Shown here piece by piece: positions 36,289 through 41,331 of a stretch of DNA of 44,593 nucleotides. Under the pieces are notes generated by a model, which was not told where the DNA came from, did no database searches, and worked only from the letters and a program-made list of their open reading frames with translations. Both the position numbers and the translations under genes were made by a program. The first letter of the stretch is position 1. Each line of letters opens with the position of its first letter. This DNA is from Anaerolineales bacterium (GTDB lineage Bacteria > Chloroflexota > Anaerolineae > Anaerolineales > Villigracilaceae), in contig JABWAU010000015.1 of the NCBI GenBank assembly GCA_013360875.1, positions 1 to 44,593 of the forward strand. Direction: 5' to 3'.

Positions 36289-37197
36289 TCACCGCGCCAA
36301 CGAAATAAACACATCCTCCAGCGTTGGCTCACCTACAGCGATATCTTTCACATTCACATTTTTCCCCTTCAATGCTTTCAACAGGTCATCTTTCCTCTTT
36401 CCTCTTTTCGTGATCGTCCGTAAATGATCGCCAGCCAGCCCCACTCGTAACACCCCTTCAATCTCAGGCAACGCCTCCAGCCCTGCTTCCAGCGGCTCGG
36501 CGTACACCTCCCACACGTCGCCAGGGATGATGTCGCGCTTCAGGTTGGAGGGCGTGTCCATCGCCAGCAGTTTGCCGTTGCGCATGATGCCCACGCGTTC
36601 GCAGTATTCGGCTTCGTCCATGTAGTGCGTTGTGACCAAAATCGTCACGCCGTTATTGGCAAGTTCGTAAATCAAATCCCAGAAGGCGCGTCGGGCGGTG
36701 GGGTCAACTCCCGATGTCGGTTCGTCGAGGAAGAGCAGTTTCGGTTCATGCACCAAAGCGATGCCCAGCGCCAACCTCTGCCGCCAGCCGGCGGAGAGAG
36801 TCTGCGTCAGCGTGGACTCATGCCCATTGAGCCCGACCAGGTCAAGGGTCCGTGCGATGCGGGCTTTGTCGCGAATCCCATACACGCCGCCGTAAAAGGT
36901 CAGATTTTCCAGCACAGTCAGGTCATCGTAGATTGCAAACTTCTGCGACATATATCCCGAGCGGGCGCGCACTTGCTCACTTTGACGGAACGCGTCGAAT
37001 CCCAACACGGTTGCCTTGCCCTCGCTGGGTTCGAGCAAGCCGAGCAGCATGCGGATGGTTGTGGTCTTGCCCGAGCCGTTCGGACCGAGATAGCCAACCA
37101 CTTCCCCTTCGTTCACTTGAAAGTTGATGTGATCCACTGCGACGAAATCGCCAAAGCGCCGCGTGAGATTTTCGACCAGGATGACGGGTTCGTTCAT
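36289..37197 (-). CDS. ABC-2 exporter ATPase, catalytic subunit
   Basis: A 302-residue ABC ATPase. Walker A is GPNGSGKTTTIRMLLGLLEP, the signature is TLSAGWRQRLALGIALVHEP, Walker B is LLFLDEPTSGVDP, and the switch histidine is intact in LVTTHYMDEAEYCERVG. This matches the second nucleotide-binding domain of the fused YbhF ATPase. It would drive the permease at 40204 together with the preceding ATPase. Its ATG directly follows the TAA of that gene without any gap, so they are coupled. The C-terminal regulatory part (GLEALPEIEGVLRVGLAGDH) is present. Confidence 0.92.
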   Translation of the reverse strand: MNEPVILVENLTRRFGDFVAVDHINFQVNEGEVVGYLGPNGSGKTTTIRMLLGLLEPSEGKATVLGFDAFRQSEQVRARSGYMSQKFAIYDDLTVLENLTFYGGVYGIRDKARIARTLDLVGLNGHESTLTQTLSAGWRQRLALGIALVHEPKLLFLDEPTSGVDPTARRAFWDLIYELANNGVTILVTTHYMDEAEYCERVGIMRNGKLLAMDTPSNLKRDIIPGDVWEVYAEPLEAGLEALPEIEGVLRVGLAGDHLRTITKRGKRKDDLLKALKGKNVNVKDIAVGEPTLEDVFISLAR

Positions 37198-38187
37198 TTA
37201 TTTGGACTCCGACAATGCAATGAACACATCTTCGAGGACGGGCGGCACGGGACGGAGTTCGTCCACCTGACCGCCTGCGCTTCGTATTTTGGACTTGAGC
37301 CTGCTCAACACGCCCTGAGCCTTTCCCTCGCCGACGCGGATGTGCAGCCTGTCGCCGAATGCCTGCACGTCTTCGACATCTTCATCCTGATGCGCGACAT
37401 GACGGAGGAGATGCAACGGTGAGCCGCGCAGTTCGAGGATGCGTCGGTTGAGGCGGGCGCGCAGGTTGGAGGGCGTGTCCTCAGCGATGAGTTTTCCATC
37501 TTTCATGAACCCAACGCGGTGACAGCGCGAGGCTTCGTCCATGTAGGGGGTGGAGATGAGGACCGCGACGCCCCCCTCGCCCCCCCTCCATCTTCCCCCC
37601 AAATTCCCCAAATTGGGGGAGAGATGGAGAGGGGACGAAACAAGTTTGATGACTAATTGCCAGAAATCCTGCCGCGTGACGGGGTCAACGCCGGTGGTGG
37701 GTTCATCGAGGAGGAGGACGCGGGGTTTGGTCACAAGCGCAGAGGCCAAGCCGAGTTTTTGCTTCATGCCTCCCGAAAGTTGACCTGCTTTGCGGTCGGT
37801 GAATTTTTCGAGTCCGACGAATTCGAGGATTTCCATGCAGCGCGGGAGCCACTCGTTCGCTTTCAGTCCGCGCACTTCGGCGAAGAAGCGGATGTTTTCG
37901 AGGACGGTCAGGTCTTCGTAGAGGGAAAATCTCTGCGAGAGGTAGCCGAACTGCGAGCGCGCCTGTTCGGTTTGTTTGTTGATGTCGTAGCCGCAGATCT
38001 TCACGTCGCCGGCATCCGCTTTGAGCGCGCCGACGAGCAGGCGGATGGTGGTGGTTTTGCCTGCGCCGTCCGCGCCGACGAGGCCGTAGATTTCGCCCGC
38101 GCGAATGTTTAGTGACACATCATTGACTGCGTGCATGTCGCCAAAGGATTTGCTTATATTTGTAGCAGAAACAAGAAGGTTAGTCAT
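37198..38187 (-). CDS. ABC-2 exporter ATPase with altered switch residue and inserted repeat
   Basis: A 329-residue ABC ATPase matching the first half of YbhF. Walker A GADGAGKTTTIRLLVGALKA (38-57), signature LSGGMKQKLGLASALVTKP and Walker B VLLLDEPTTGVDP are intact. The switch histidine is replaced by proline (VLISTPYMDEASRCHRVG), as is usual for this half. Residues 184-206 (SSPLHLSPNLGNLGGRWRGG and three more) interrupt the strand before that motif and are encoded by a palindromic repeat. The frame stays open. The insert lies between Walker B and the switch, so function may suffer, but this is uncertain. Confidence 0.88.
   Translation of the reverse strand: MTNLLVSATNISKSFGDMHAVNDVSLNIRAGEIYGLVGADGAGKTTTIRLLVGALKADAGDVKICGYDINKQTEQARSQFGYLSQRFSLYEDLTVLENIRFFAEVRGLKANEWLPRCMEILEFVGLEKFTDRKAGQLSGGMKQKLGLASALVTKPRVLLLDEPTTGVDPVTRQDFWQLVIKLVSSPLHLSPNLGNLGGRWRGGEGGVAVLISTPYMDEASRCHRVGFMKDGKLIAEDTPSNLRARLNRRILELRGSPLHLLRHVAHQDEDVEDVQAFGDRLHIRVGEGKAQGVLSRLKSKIRSAGGQVDELRPVPPVLEDVFIALSESK
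37570..37638 (-). repeat. Palindromic repeat inserted in frame in an ABC ATPase gene
   Basis: About 69 bp containing inverted arms around CCCCAAATTCCCCAAATTGG, with TCTCCATCTC matched by AAGATGGAGG, encode residues 184-206. Related ATPases run straight from the KLV strand into VAVLIST. The insertion adds 23 codons and keeps the frame. Confidence 0.65.
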
Positions 38188-38207
38188 TGTCGGGATGGAA
38201 GAATGTT

Positions 38208-38257
38208 AAGAGTCAAAAGTCGAAGGTCAAAGGTCGGTCGGTTGATGGTCAGACTTT
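38208..38257 (+). repeat. Left heptad-repeat array of the four-helix-bundle cassette
   Basis: Four clear 7-bp units of the form NNAGGTC or near it on the plus strand (AAGAGTC, AAAAGTC, GAAGGTC, AAAGGTC) followed by decayed units. The stop codon of the four-helix-bundle gene lies at its inner edge. The array at the other end has the same units on the minus strand. Confidence 0.6.
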
Positions 38258-38659
38258 GTAATCCGCTTCGTCGTCGGAGATGCGGCGCTTTCTCGGGTTG
38301 GATTCCAGATACGCAATGAATTTCGCAATCTGACGGGCGCATGATTCAGCCAGTGAATACGCCTCTTTGAATTGTTCCTCAGCGATGTATTTTTGATCGA
38401 GCGCTACATACAATTGTGCGCGCACTTCGCCAGCCGAGGCTTTTGCCATTCCGAGATAATTGATGAATTGCACATCCGTGCGGCTCTCGAATCCTTCAGC
38501 AATATTACTCATGGCAGAAACGCCCGCGCGGCGAATTTGATCGCGTAAGCCAAAATCCCGATTAAAGCCTGTCTGGTTGCTCAATTCATATACCTTGTTG
38601 GTTAACTGCCGTGCTGTTTTCCAAGCCTCGATCTCCTCGAAACGGGTAATGCCAGCCAT
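38249..38659 (-). CDS. Four-helix-bundle protein (23S rRNA intervening-sequence family)
   Basis: A 136-residue all-helical protein of the family first seen in intervening sequences of 23S rRNA genes, and related to Avd of diversity-generating retroelements. Typical segments are ITRFEEIEAWKTARQLTNKV near the start, GLRDQIRRAGVSAMSNIAEG, and KASAGEVRAQLYVALDQKYI, with a helix later containing SLAESCARQIAKFIAYLESN. Its biochemical role is unknown. The family is often found as single genes in odd places. Here it sits between the HlyD and ATPase genes of an export operon, flanked by inverted heptad arrays. I start at 38659 after AAGGAG. The extra open frame upstream just translates the repeats. 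Confidence 0.88.
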   Translation of the reverse strand: MAGITRFEEIEAWKTARQLTNKVYELSNQTGFNRDFGLRDQIRRAGVSAMSNIAEGFESRTDVQFINYLGMAKASAGEVRAQLYVALDQKYIAEEQFKEAYSLAESCARQIAKFIAYLESNPRKRRISDDEADYKV

Positions 38660-38700
38660 GCTATTCTCCTTTTTGTTACACCAATCTGACTTTGAACGCC

Positions 38701-38777
38701 GACCTTCGACTTGCGACCTGTGACCTTCGACCTGCAACCTTCGACCTGCGACCTTCGACCTGTAACCTTTGATCTTT
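38701..38777 (-). repeat. Right heptad-repeat array of the four-helix-bundle cassette
   Basis: Eleven head-to-tail 7-bp units (GACCTTC, GACCTGC, GACCTGT and variants on the plus strand, so NNAGGTC on the minus strand) run without a break from 38701 to 38777 and enter the stop codon of the HlyD gene. Orientation is opposite to the left array, giving inverted ends. Confidence 0.75.
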
Positions 38778-40122
38778 ACTTGAACACCACATCTGCCGGC
38801 ATGCCAATCTTCAACTTTCCTTCGGTATCTGTGACTTTCAACTTCACCGCAAAGACTGTGCTGCTCCGTCCTTCGACGGTTTGAACATTACGCGGGGTGA
38901 ATTCGGCTTTATCTGCAATGTGGATAATCTCGGCGTCGAAGACGGGGCTTTCGCCCGAGGCAACGTCAATGGTGACGGAGGCAGACTGCCCCAGGCTGAT
39001 TTCGTTGAGGCGCGGTTCAGGAACGTACACGGTAATCGTCAAATCGCTCAGGTTTGCCATCGTCAGCGCCACAGCGCCCGGCTGGATGAATTCGCCAGGT
39101 TCGACGCTGCGCGTGAGAATGACCCCGTCCATGGGGGCATAGACGGTGAGTTTGGACATTTGCGTGTCAATCAACGCCAGGTTCGCTTCGGCGGTCCGCA
39201 CTGCGGCTTGCGCCTGTTCCAGGGCGGCTTTTGCCTGCTCGACGGCTTTTTCAGCGGCGGCAACGGCGGGCGAGTGGAGGCCGGTTTGCAGGGCGCGGAG
39301 GTTGTCTGCGGCGGTATCGTAGATTTCCTGAGCGATGGCAAGATTACTGCGGGCTTCGAGGATGTCGTCTGCCGCGGTGGAGGTCAGCGCGTCATCGTAA
39401 GCCTTTTGTGCGTCCTCAAGGGCGAGTTCAGCCTCGTCGAGGGCGGTCTGCGCGGCGTCGCGCAACTTTTGGCTGTCGGATGCGCCCGAAGTCTTGTCGT
39501 ACACTGCCTTTGCATTTTGATAGGCGATACGCGCCTGATTGAGTGAGGCTTCGATTTCGAGGAACTGCGCGCCGCCTTCGGTCTTTTGCAAGTCATCCAG
39601 TTTTTTCTTGGCATCTTCCAGTTTGAGGGCGGCAGAGTCCACTTCGGCTTGCGCGGCGGCGAGACGCTCCGCTTTGGAGAAGTACCAGACAGGCTGGTCG
39701 AATTGACTCGGTTTGGGCGTACGCCAGACGGCGAGGCGCGTGGCGGCTTCCTGCGCGACCGCGTTGGTGAGGGTCAGTTCGTATTGTTGTTGGGCGGCGG
39801 CGGAGGCGGCGGAGGCGGTGTTGAGGGCGGCTTTGGCAGAGTCGAGTTGGGCGGAGGCAACGGCTCGTTGGGCAGTCAGCAGGCTGTCGTCGAGGGAAAG
39901 AAGCGGGTCTCCCTTCCGAACGGTTTGTCCCTCGGTGACGAAGACATCCTTCACTCTGCCAGCCAGTTCGGGCGCGATGTTGACCTGGGTCGCTTCGATG
40001 ACGCCCGAGGCTTTGAGCGCGCCGTTTTCGTCGGCAGTGAGCGCACCGAAAGCGTAATACAGAATTGCCGAAAGGACGAGCAGGATGACAACGATACGAA
40101 GGGCGAGGGGTGGTTTGTGCAT
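38776..40122 (-). CDS. HlyD-type membrane fusion/adaptor protein
   Basis: A 448-residue periplasmic-side adaptor of ABC-2 exporters of the YbhG type. One N-terminal membrane helix (LRIVVILLVLSAILYYAFGA), then the split biotinyl-lipoyl domain (ASGVIEATQVNIAPELAGRV, matched later by LTVYAPMDGVILTRSVEPGE), a very long coiled coil (about 85-330, Ala-rich), and a beta barrel (SLGQSASVTIDVASG). The AVWRTPKPSQFDQPVWYFSK stretch interrupts the coiled coil. AAGGAG precedes the ATG. The stop codon merges into the heptad array. Works with the permease and the two ATPases. Confidence 0.9.
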   Translation of the reverse strand: MHKPPLALRIVVILLVLSAILYYAFGALTADENGALKASGVIEATQVNIAPELAGRVKDVFVTEGQTVRKGDPLLSLDDSLLTAQRAVASAQLDSAKAALNTASAASAAAQQQYELTLTNAVAQEAATRLAVWRTPKPSQFDQPVWYFSKAERLAAAQAEVDSAALKLEDAKKKLDDLQKTEGGAQFLEIEASLNQARIAYQNAKAVYDKTSGASDSQKLRDAAQTALDEAELALEDAQKAYDDALTSTAADDILEARSNLAIAQEIYDTAADNLRALQTGLHSPAVAAAEKAVEQAKAALEQAQAAVRTAEANLALIDTQMSKLTVYAPMDGVILTRSVEPGEFIQPGAVALTMANLSDLTITVYVPEPRLNEISLGQSASVTIDVASGESPVFDAEIIHIADKAEFTPRNVQTVEGRSSTVFAVKLKVTDTEGKLKIGMPADVVFK

Positions 40123-40203: not shown

Positions 40204-41331
40204 TTAATCGAGACGTTTGCGGAAACGCAACGCGGCGAGGGTCATGATGCCGACCGCGAAGAGGGTCATGGCAAGGACATCGAGTTGAATCATGTCGAGA
40301 CCGACGCCCTTAAGCAGCAGTGAACGAATGATGACGAGGTAATAACGCAGGGGCATGAGATAGGAAATCCATTGCAGGATTTTGGGCATGGCTTCGAGCG
40401 GAAAGAAAAAGCCCGAAAGGAAAATGCTCGGCAGGAGCGTCATCCACACGGTAAGCATGGCTTCCTGCTGGGTGTTGGCGATGGTGGAGGCAAGCAGACC
40501 GATGCCCAGCCCTGTAACCATGAACACGCCTGAAAGCAGGATGATGAGACCCAGATCGCCGCGGATTGGCACGCCAAACCACCAATGTCCCACCGCGAGC
40601 ACTTCGATAGTGTTGAAGAATCCAAGGAGGACATAGGGCATGAGTTTGCCGACGATGAGTTCCCAGGGGCGGATGGGTGTGACGATGAGTTGTTCGATAG
40701 TGCCACGCTCGCGCTCGCGCACCACCGAGGTGGCGGTGAGGATGGCGGCGATGGCGTAGAGAATCATGCCAATCACGCCGGGAATCATGAAGTGCGCGCT
40801 GATGAGGTCGGGGTTGAACCAAACCGTAGTGCGCACTTCGACAGGCGGCTGGACGCGCAGGTTCATGCCGCTGCGTTCGAACCTTTGCATGAGAATGCCC
40901 GTCGAATGCGCCTGCCCGATGAGTTGCGCGGCAGAGAGCGCGGTGGAGGCGCTGGTCGGGTCGGAGCCATCGAGGATGAAGGCGATTTGGGCGTTTCCGT
41001 CAGCGAGGCGCTGGGCGTAATCGGGCGGGATGATGACGGCGGCGCGCGCCTCACCCGACATGATGAGGGTTTCGATTTCGGTTTCTGAATCCACCGCATA
41101 GGCGATGCGGAAGTAATCTGCGGCGCGGTAGGAATCGAGCAGGGCGCGTGATTCCACACTGCGGCTGCGGTCCAGCACCGCCAGCGGGACGTTGCGCACG
41201 TCGTTGGTGGCAGAATAGCCAAGCAGGAACAATTGCATGATAGGGATGACCAAAATCAACACGAGCGTGCGTGTGTCGCGGAAGATTTGGATGAATTCCT
41301 TGCGGATGATGGAGAGGAGGCGGGAGTTCAT
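40204..41331 (-). CDS. ABC-2 type permease
   Basis: A 375-residue permease. After one N-terminal membrane helix (LVLILVIPIMQLFLLGYSAT) comes a large outer domain (about 50-180), then five helices including MIPGVIGMILYAIAAILTAT and FMVTGLGIGLLASTIANTQQ. The cytoplasmic segment VVRERERGTIEQLIVTPIRP is the coupling motif of this family. YbhS/YbhR-type systems usually have two permeases. Only one is present here, so it may form a homodimer. The product is likely an efflux pump for small lipophilic compounds, but the substrate is unknown. Confidence 0.9.
   Translation of the reverse strand: MNSRLLSIIRKEFIQIFRDTRTLVLILVIPIMQLFLLGYSATNDVRNVPLAVLDRSRSVESRALLDSYRAADYFRIAYAVDSETEIETLIMSGEARAAVIIPPDYAQRLADGNAQIAFILDGSDPTSASTALSAAQLIGQAHSTGILMQRFERSGMNLRVQPPVEVRTTVWFNPDLISAHFMIPGVIGMILYAIAAILTATSVVRERERGTIEQLIVTPIRPWELIVGKLMPYVLLGFFNTIEVLAVGHWWFGVPIRGDLGLIILLSGVFMVTGLGIGLLASTIANTQQEAMLTVWMTLLPSIFLSGFFFPLEAMPKILQWISYLMPLRYYLVIIRSLLLKGVGLDMIQLDVLAMTLFAVGIMTLAALRFRKRLD

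Follow-up and report, generated by a model that had tools for sequence, protein, structure and literature searches.

What is a gene of the S23 (23S_rRNA_IVP) four-helix-bundle family doing between two protein genes of an operon, and why is it enclosed by tandem seven-base repeats that face each other? The question is raised by a single locus in the window, which here means the whole analysed stretch of 44,593 nucleotides (positions 1–44,593 of contig JABWAU010000015.1, Anaerolineales bacterium).

An S23 Gene Enclosed by Opposed Heptad Arrays

The gene at 38249–38659 (minus strand, 136 aa) matches PF05635 with 110.2 bits (E 7e-32; curated cut-off 33.8) and TIGR02436 with 103.1 bits (curated cut-off 24), and belongs to the S23 / 23S_rRNA_IVP family; solved structures among the relatives of its protein are 2gsc and 2rld. 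It interrupts the junction between the hlyD membrane-fusion gene, its upstream host gene (38776–40122, minus strand; HlyD_D23, HlyD_3), and the downstream ABC ATPase gene (37198–38187, minus strand; ABC_tran), so that HlyD, S23 and ATPase are all encoded on the minus strand. A second ABC ATPase (36289–37197, minus strand; ABC_tran) and an ABC-2 permease (40204–41331, minus strand; ABC2_membrane_3) are part of the same operon.

Direct reading, a period-7 scan and Tandem Repeats Finder all recover an array on each side of the gene. The 3′-side arm (38208–38235) consists of four contiguous heptads with the plus-strand word NNARGTC (AAGAGTC, AAAAGTC, GAAGGTC, AAAGGTC); its scan span is 38201–38236 and its Tandem Repeats Finder score 34. 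The 5′-side arm (38700–38776) holds 11 heptads in the opposite orientation (CGACCTT, CGACTTG, CGACCTG, TGACCTT, CGACCTG, CAACCTT, CGACCTG, CGACCTT, CGACCTG, TAACCTT, TGATCTT), with a scan span of 38697–38778 and scores of 77–91. The last base of its eleventh unit, 38776, is the plus-strand first base of the hlyD stop triplet. The interrupted junction and the opposed NNAGGTC-type arrays of 4 and 11 units, as described in an earlier sequence-only reading of this DNA, thus hold, and the claim that the right array reaches the hlyD stop codon is correct by that one base.

The period-7 scan found no array in the window besides the two S23 arms, and no Rfam match reached the gathering score in the window. 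The predicted transcript folds with the two arms paired on either side of the S23 frame (z -2.57), and 1 of 100 shuffles folds equally well. The S23 ORF is therefore enclosed by complementary arms, as in intervening sequences (IVS) of 23S rRNA. Within the ABC ATPase frame that adjoins the cassette lies a C/G-rich palindrome (37580–37636, near codon 190), which looks like a separate small hairpin insertion.

Inverted Arms Recur Across the S23 Family

The sequence-only reading proposed a search for such arrays at other genes of the family. We compared the upstream flank with the reverse-complemented downstream flank (160 bp each) and counted a shuffle z of at least 4 as a pass. Inverted flanks carrying the same word were found at 89 of 142 S23 loci, against 15 of 343 control ORFs of the same loci; 53 of the 142 S23 loci fell under z 4, and 33 of 142 passed the same test in direct orientation. 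The 142 are what remains of 147 S23 loci after removal of the unplaceable L007, L198 and L203 and of two with short or masked flanks. Passes were spread over the sets examined: 4/6 in the window's own genome, 18/30 in relatives, 49/79 among the named loci nearest the window protein, 18/27 in non-Chloroflexi genomes and 35/59 among non-redundant loci. The heptad-flanked S23 gene is thus a real arrangement and a wider one than first stated.

Arms were seen in at least seven phyla by the labels of the records, many of which are MAGs (Chloroflexota, Cyanobacteriota, Bacteroidota, Armatimonadota, Thermodesulfobacteriota, Planctomycetota and a MAG labelled Proteobacteria). Of 20 plasmid records with S23 matches, 8 were inspected, and 5 of these 8 pass the inverted-arm test; the other three show direct arrays on both sides (by eye), a weak signal (z 2.0) and no arrays, respectively. 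The phage collection gave no S23 match. Arm order varies, and at some loci both orientations are visible by eye on a single side of the S23 gene. Two cyanobacterial plasmid loci place S23 among CRISPR-associated genes, with short tandem repeats on both sides: between cas10 and cmr3 (L351, 586–942) and between cas6 and cas4 (L353, 592–951).

The Repeat Word Follows the S23 Protein

Arms were then compared between different genomic contexts, using 110 armed cassettes (usable flanks at 153 of 155 distinct loci). Arm similarity was 0.00–0.01 for S23 proteins below 35% identity, 0.02–0.04 at 35–50%, 0.17 at 50–60%, 0.34 at 60–70% and 0.67 at 70% or more (n=18). Same-genome S23 pairs below 40% identity shared their words in only 2 of 40 cases, so the word is not a habit of the genome. 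Among same-genome pairs of at least 50% identity from different contexts, the score used found a common word in 0 of 8, compared with about a quarter of 94 different-genome pairs; one of the eight, the Moorena pair L196/L210 (both from genome G068), is 90% identical and has near-equal words, with the arm polarity of L196 relative to the gene reversed, a likeness that the score does not register.

Mapped onto the S23 tree, the period (7 or 8) needs 7 changes and the word class 21, where shuffled labels give 21.6 (lowest 17) and 43.1 (lowest 38), respectively; shared descent at one site contributes to both couplings. Cassettes at the hlyD site alone use AGTC, CGTC, CGTT, GGTT and octad words, and their arms fit their own partner beyond a within-site permutation (25 cassettes, P=0.0004). 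Ranking each arm's own partner over the named loci, which gave rank 1 in 12 of 77, is uninformative because orthologous sites share words.

The agreement between arms stops at the word. A unit order common to both arms appeared in 4 of 75 cassettes at p<0.05, which is the chance expectation; the window cassette (L002) has p 0.985, shuffles are exceeded by a small margin (mean 1.2), and the cassettes that do share order are L110, L137, L196 and L138. Judged from these sequences, it is the word that is kept between the arms, not a mirror copy or a register-exact pairing, which points to a common factor that recognizes the unit. The same test gives no support to selection for a register-exact stem. 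It also bears on the proposal of the sequence-only reading that the cassette is mobile and has inverted ends: the two arms have their word in common without being inverted copies of each other, and the window cassette was rejected as a transposon or MITE with terminal inverted repeats.

Occupied and Empty Junctions, Orientation and Selection

Junctions that lack the gene were also sought in relatives, and are present. Among 30 hlyD loci, S23 lies no more than 1 kb downstream in 13, the stretch from hlyD to the ATPase lacks S23 in 11 (in five of which it contains another gene) and 6 are unreadable. The closest relative without S23 at hlyD, G007, has a 90% identical HlyD and a 104-nt junction containing an array of another word. 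At 30 transaldolase loci, S23 follows rpiB in 7, rpiB lies within 94 nt without S23 in 12, and 11 are other or unreadable; in G007 the transaldolase–rpiB gap is 11 nt, again without S23.

In the S23 tree, genes of the transaldolase site and of the epimerase site mostly cluster by site; the hlyD site contributes one supported group (AGTC and CGTC words), one group with octads, and rows outside any resolved group. Given the site clades, absence in close relatives looks like loss, and we read the cassettes as old residents, with old gains and repeated losses. The compared loci yielded no recent insertion that could be paired with an empty site, and no sign of recent copying. At the rpiB–tal junction of G013 (L322), the S23 gene carries an in-frame stop and the arms persist, as in a decaying cassette; two rpiB–tal junctions without S23 (L343, L344) show, by eye, apparent short heptad arrays or a repeat hairpin.

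Orientation is a further point at which S23 and transposases part. At loci flanked by two genes of like direction, S23 follows that direction in 30 of 32 non-redundant cases (94 of 98 overall), compared with 4 of 9 for DDE transposases of the same relatives (24 of 30 transposase loci were assignable). The difference is confined to loci whose two neighbors run one way: by the upstream neighbor alone, S23 (44:10) and transposases (16:7) show no difference (p 0.37). Symmetric arms cannot set the orientation of S23. The gene either depends on the host transcript or reaches its place by way of it.

At the hlyD site, dN/dS is 0.026–0.078 for S23, 0.094–0.266 for HlyD and 0.063–0.206 for the ATPase, and the S23 ratio lies under those of both neighbors in each of 13 pairs; the ratios are rough, with high synonymous distances (six genomes give 15 pairs, of which two are saturated). 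These values indicate that the hlyD-site S23 protein is under purifying selection and is kept rather than decaying.

Arrays Away From S23 Genes

Heptad arrays are also present away from the S23 gene in the window's genome. The pattern AGGTC-NN-AGGTC-NN-AGGTC has 20 matches in that genome and its reversed control 0. A 295 kb sample, part of which was picked for holding AGGTC arrays, contains 27 period-7 arrays with many different words; control lags in the same sample gave 0 arrays at 4, 5 and 9–13, 3 at lag 6 and 8 at lag 8. In 452 kb not picked for AGGTC, 21 period-7/8 arrays lie away from S23. Tandem seven-base units between genes, many per genome, are thus a feature of this bacterium, as in the intergenic heptad simple repeats described elsewhere.

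Matched to the words of the genome's own five S23 genes, the 21 free arrays gave P values of 0.27, 0.032 and 0.0035 against random sets, so that in this one genome only two of the three thresholds show a match above that of random sets. A 1.67 Mb pool enriched for S23 loci contains 231 arrays, of which 147 lie more than 250 bp from any S23 gene. An inverted partner within 130 bp was found for 36 of these 147, against 1 of 145 at a distance of 3 kb; part of the free arrays are therefore hairpins without a gene. The contig of L042 carries an octad array of about 20 units (1883–2050) with the word of an S23 gene about 0.9 kb away.

Across 61 genomes, S23 and array counts correlate with a rho of 0.72, and with a partial correlation of 0.61 after removal of reverse transcriptase and Y1 transposase counts. 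Given S23, the partial correlation with arrays in the same 61 genomes is 0.26 for reverse transcriptase and 0.07 for Y1; DDE transposases reach 0.26 uncorrected. As alternative partners of the arrays, these three explain little. The S23–array correlation is 0.56 within family and 0.31 within genus, the latter not significant (p 0.20).

Motif counts over whole genomes are limited to the word searched, and the reversed control is itself common in some genomes (455 in G054, 152 in G052), so stretches were sampled with a word-free scan. Period-7/8 arrays numbered 0 in 318,802 bp from nine S23-less genomes, six of which belong to other families so that kinship may play a part, and 29 in 399,000 bp from 13 S23-rich genomes, 5 of which showed none. 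By motif, S23-less genomes gave 10 hits in G002 (87% complete), 3 in G035, 2 in G036 and 1 in G059, and the S23-rich G016 (15 S23 genes) only 3. The sequence-only reading had named arrays equally common without the gene as a finding that would speak against it. Within genomes many arrays do stand apart from S23, as the S23-enriched pool shows; between genomes, no array was found in the sampled stretches of S23-less genomes.

Resemblance to Described Repeat Systems

The closest described anatomy is the 23S rRNA IVS of Coxiella, in which a 28-bp inverted stem is cut by RNase III and three tandem GACAGAT heptads precede the S23 start, with a cut at the first repeat (PMC4990558). The window cassette agrees with the account given there: an inverted stem encloses an S23-family ORF in its loop, heptads precede the start codon of that ORF, and the unit is cleanly absent in relatives. 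It differs from a 23S rRNA IVS in lying between protein genes of an operon, and its location between hlyD and the ATPase rules out that assignment; it differs from the Coxiella IVS as reported (PMC4990558) in having longer tandem arrays as arms, with a word tied to the S23 subtype, and in that its processing is only presumed. Taken together, the nearest model for its working would be an intervening sequence paired with a cognate protein. The sequence-only reading called the unit undescribed. For the general S23–heptad association this agrees with our searches of one open-licence library, which turned up the Coxiella case alone and no statement of the association; it does not extend to every member, as that one published 23S rRNA IVS has heptads before its S23 ORF (PMC4990558).

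Intergenic heptads have been described in their own right. TAACTGA repeats occur in Beggiatoaceae, cyanobacteria and Bacteroidetes, and their author asks for a binding protein and suggests that it may be the mobile element (PMC4679880). They resemble the arrays studied here in being intergenic, in occurring many times per genome and in having a partner protein that is sought, and they differ from S23 arms in being mostly direct and upstream of starts (PMC4679880); a term search of the main text of that article gave no mention of S23. Exact TAACTGA arrays flank one S23 gene in our set (L270), the sole locus of 349 with three in a row. The heptads GGGAATC of Xanthomonas and GGGGA(C/T)T of Nostoc are likewise intergenic (PMC4692102). 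Like S23 arms, GGGAATC forms inverted pairs, 70 and 75 in two Xanthomonas genomes, unlike the Nostoc genome of the same article, which has few, and the text seen of PMC4692102 draws no link to S23. The solved structure 2gsc is an S23 protein of X. campestris (species per PMC4990558).

REP / TnpA-REP systems are genome-wide intergenic hairpins tied to one encoded protein. The arrays studied here share this property, with S23 and not a Y1 transposase as the partner; the Y1–array partial correlation given S23 (0.07, 61 genomes) led us to reject them as REP / Y1-transposase hairpins.

A Proposed Cognate Protein for Each Repeat Word, and Alternatives

An anatomy like that of Coxiella outside rRNA, combined with words that follow the S23 subtype, suggests that S23 recognizes the word and that processing of the stem makes the cassette tolerated. 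We consider it somewhat probable, a little better than an even call, that the S23 gene and its surrounding repeats are one co-inherited, IVS-like unit whose protein recognizes its own word and which is processed in the mRNA. The cassette would be an intervening-sequence-like element placed between operon genes rather than inside 23S rRNA. Each S23 subtype would have its own word of 7 or 8 bases, with opposed arrays flanking the gene and part of the arrays with the subtype word standing as free hairpins elsewhere in the genome. Recognition of that word, presumably by binding, would fall to the S23 protein, which forms a pentameric ring in a relative of solved structure. Pairing of the arms in the operon transcript would enclose the S23 frame and allow the cassette to be processed, possibly at the RNA level by RNase III cutting, leaving the host genes readable. 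The arrays, both at the gene and away from it, would depend on S23 for their upkeep, and any mode of growth assigned to them is presumptive.

That the cassette is instead a mobile DNA element, its arrays serving as terminal inverted repeats for a transposase acting in trans and S23 as cargo or helper, we think unlikely. Such an element would fit the inverted arms, the short S23-less junctions of close relatives, the recurrence of one word beside similar S23 genes across different contexts and genomes, and the S23 clades that mix phyla. It does not account for a unit order that differs between arms, for copies that differ greatly in word or for the non-random orientation of S23; counts of Y1 and DDE transposases add little, and neither a recent insertion nor a target duplication was seen. 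The interpretation given in the sequence-only reading is thus partly supported: the arrangement stands, and on mobility the absence of shared unit order, the co-directional S23 genes and the site clades with no recent copying seen (hlyD-site genes fall into several clades) speak against it.

Less probable still is that the stems themselves are selected, as terminators, processing signals or mRNA-stability hairpins, and that S23 merely tolerates such intergenic places. The inverted partners near free arrays and the folding of the window cassette, which is better than that of shuffles, are what this would predict; it is opposed by the lack of in-register pairing at variable positions, by a word and period that follow the protein, and by the array-free stretches sampled from S23-less genomes. 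Generic seven-base slippage repeats that collect between genes, with S23 as one neighbor among many, seem to us the least credible source. Work cited in PMC4679880 and PMC4692102 describes heptads as a common class of bacterial simple repeats and proposes polymerase slippage, and most arrays of the pool do lie away from S23, but slippage would predict neither the same word inverted on both sides of S23, nor subtype-specific words, nor the correlation between S23 and arrays.

Returning to S23 proteins with cognate words, we put forward a broader extension tentatively, as possible but somewhat short of an even chance. S23 could be a large class of word-specific nucleic-acid-binding proteins, each building and keeping its own 7- or 8-base arrays genome-wide; intergenic heptads such as TAACTGA and GGGAATC would then be cognate arrays of resident or former S23 proteins, and the 23S rRNA IVS a special case borne by rRNA. 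Three puzzles meet here: S23/IVS proteins that have solved folds and lack a known function, the origin of rRNA IVS, and the partner protein sought for the heptads. If S23 subtypes do have cognate words, binding assays over dozens of natural protein–word pairs could test the function, and the pairs would provide a natural recognition code.

Relation to Avd and Diversity-Generating Retroelements

S23 is related, as a four-helix-bundle family, to Avd of diversity-generating retroelements. Reverse transcriptase counts add little to S23 in predicting arrays. No reverse transcriptase was found on the window's contig, and the window cassette was rejected as a diversity-generating retroelement, with no reverse transcriptase beside its avd-like gene. 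The two reverse transcriptase hits of the genome lie on contigs C201 (L006) and C30 (L007), each near a weak PF05635 (S23/Avd) hit and with repeat-rich frames in the flanks; these loci are probably two diversity-generating retroelements.
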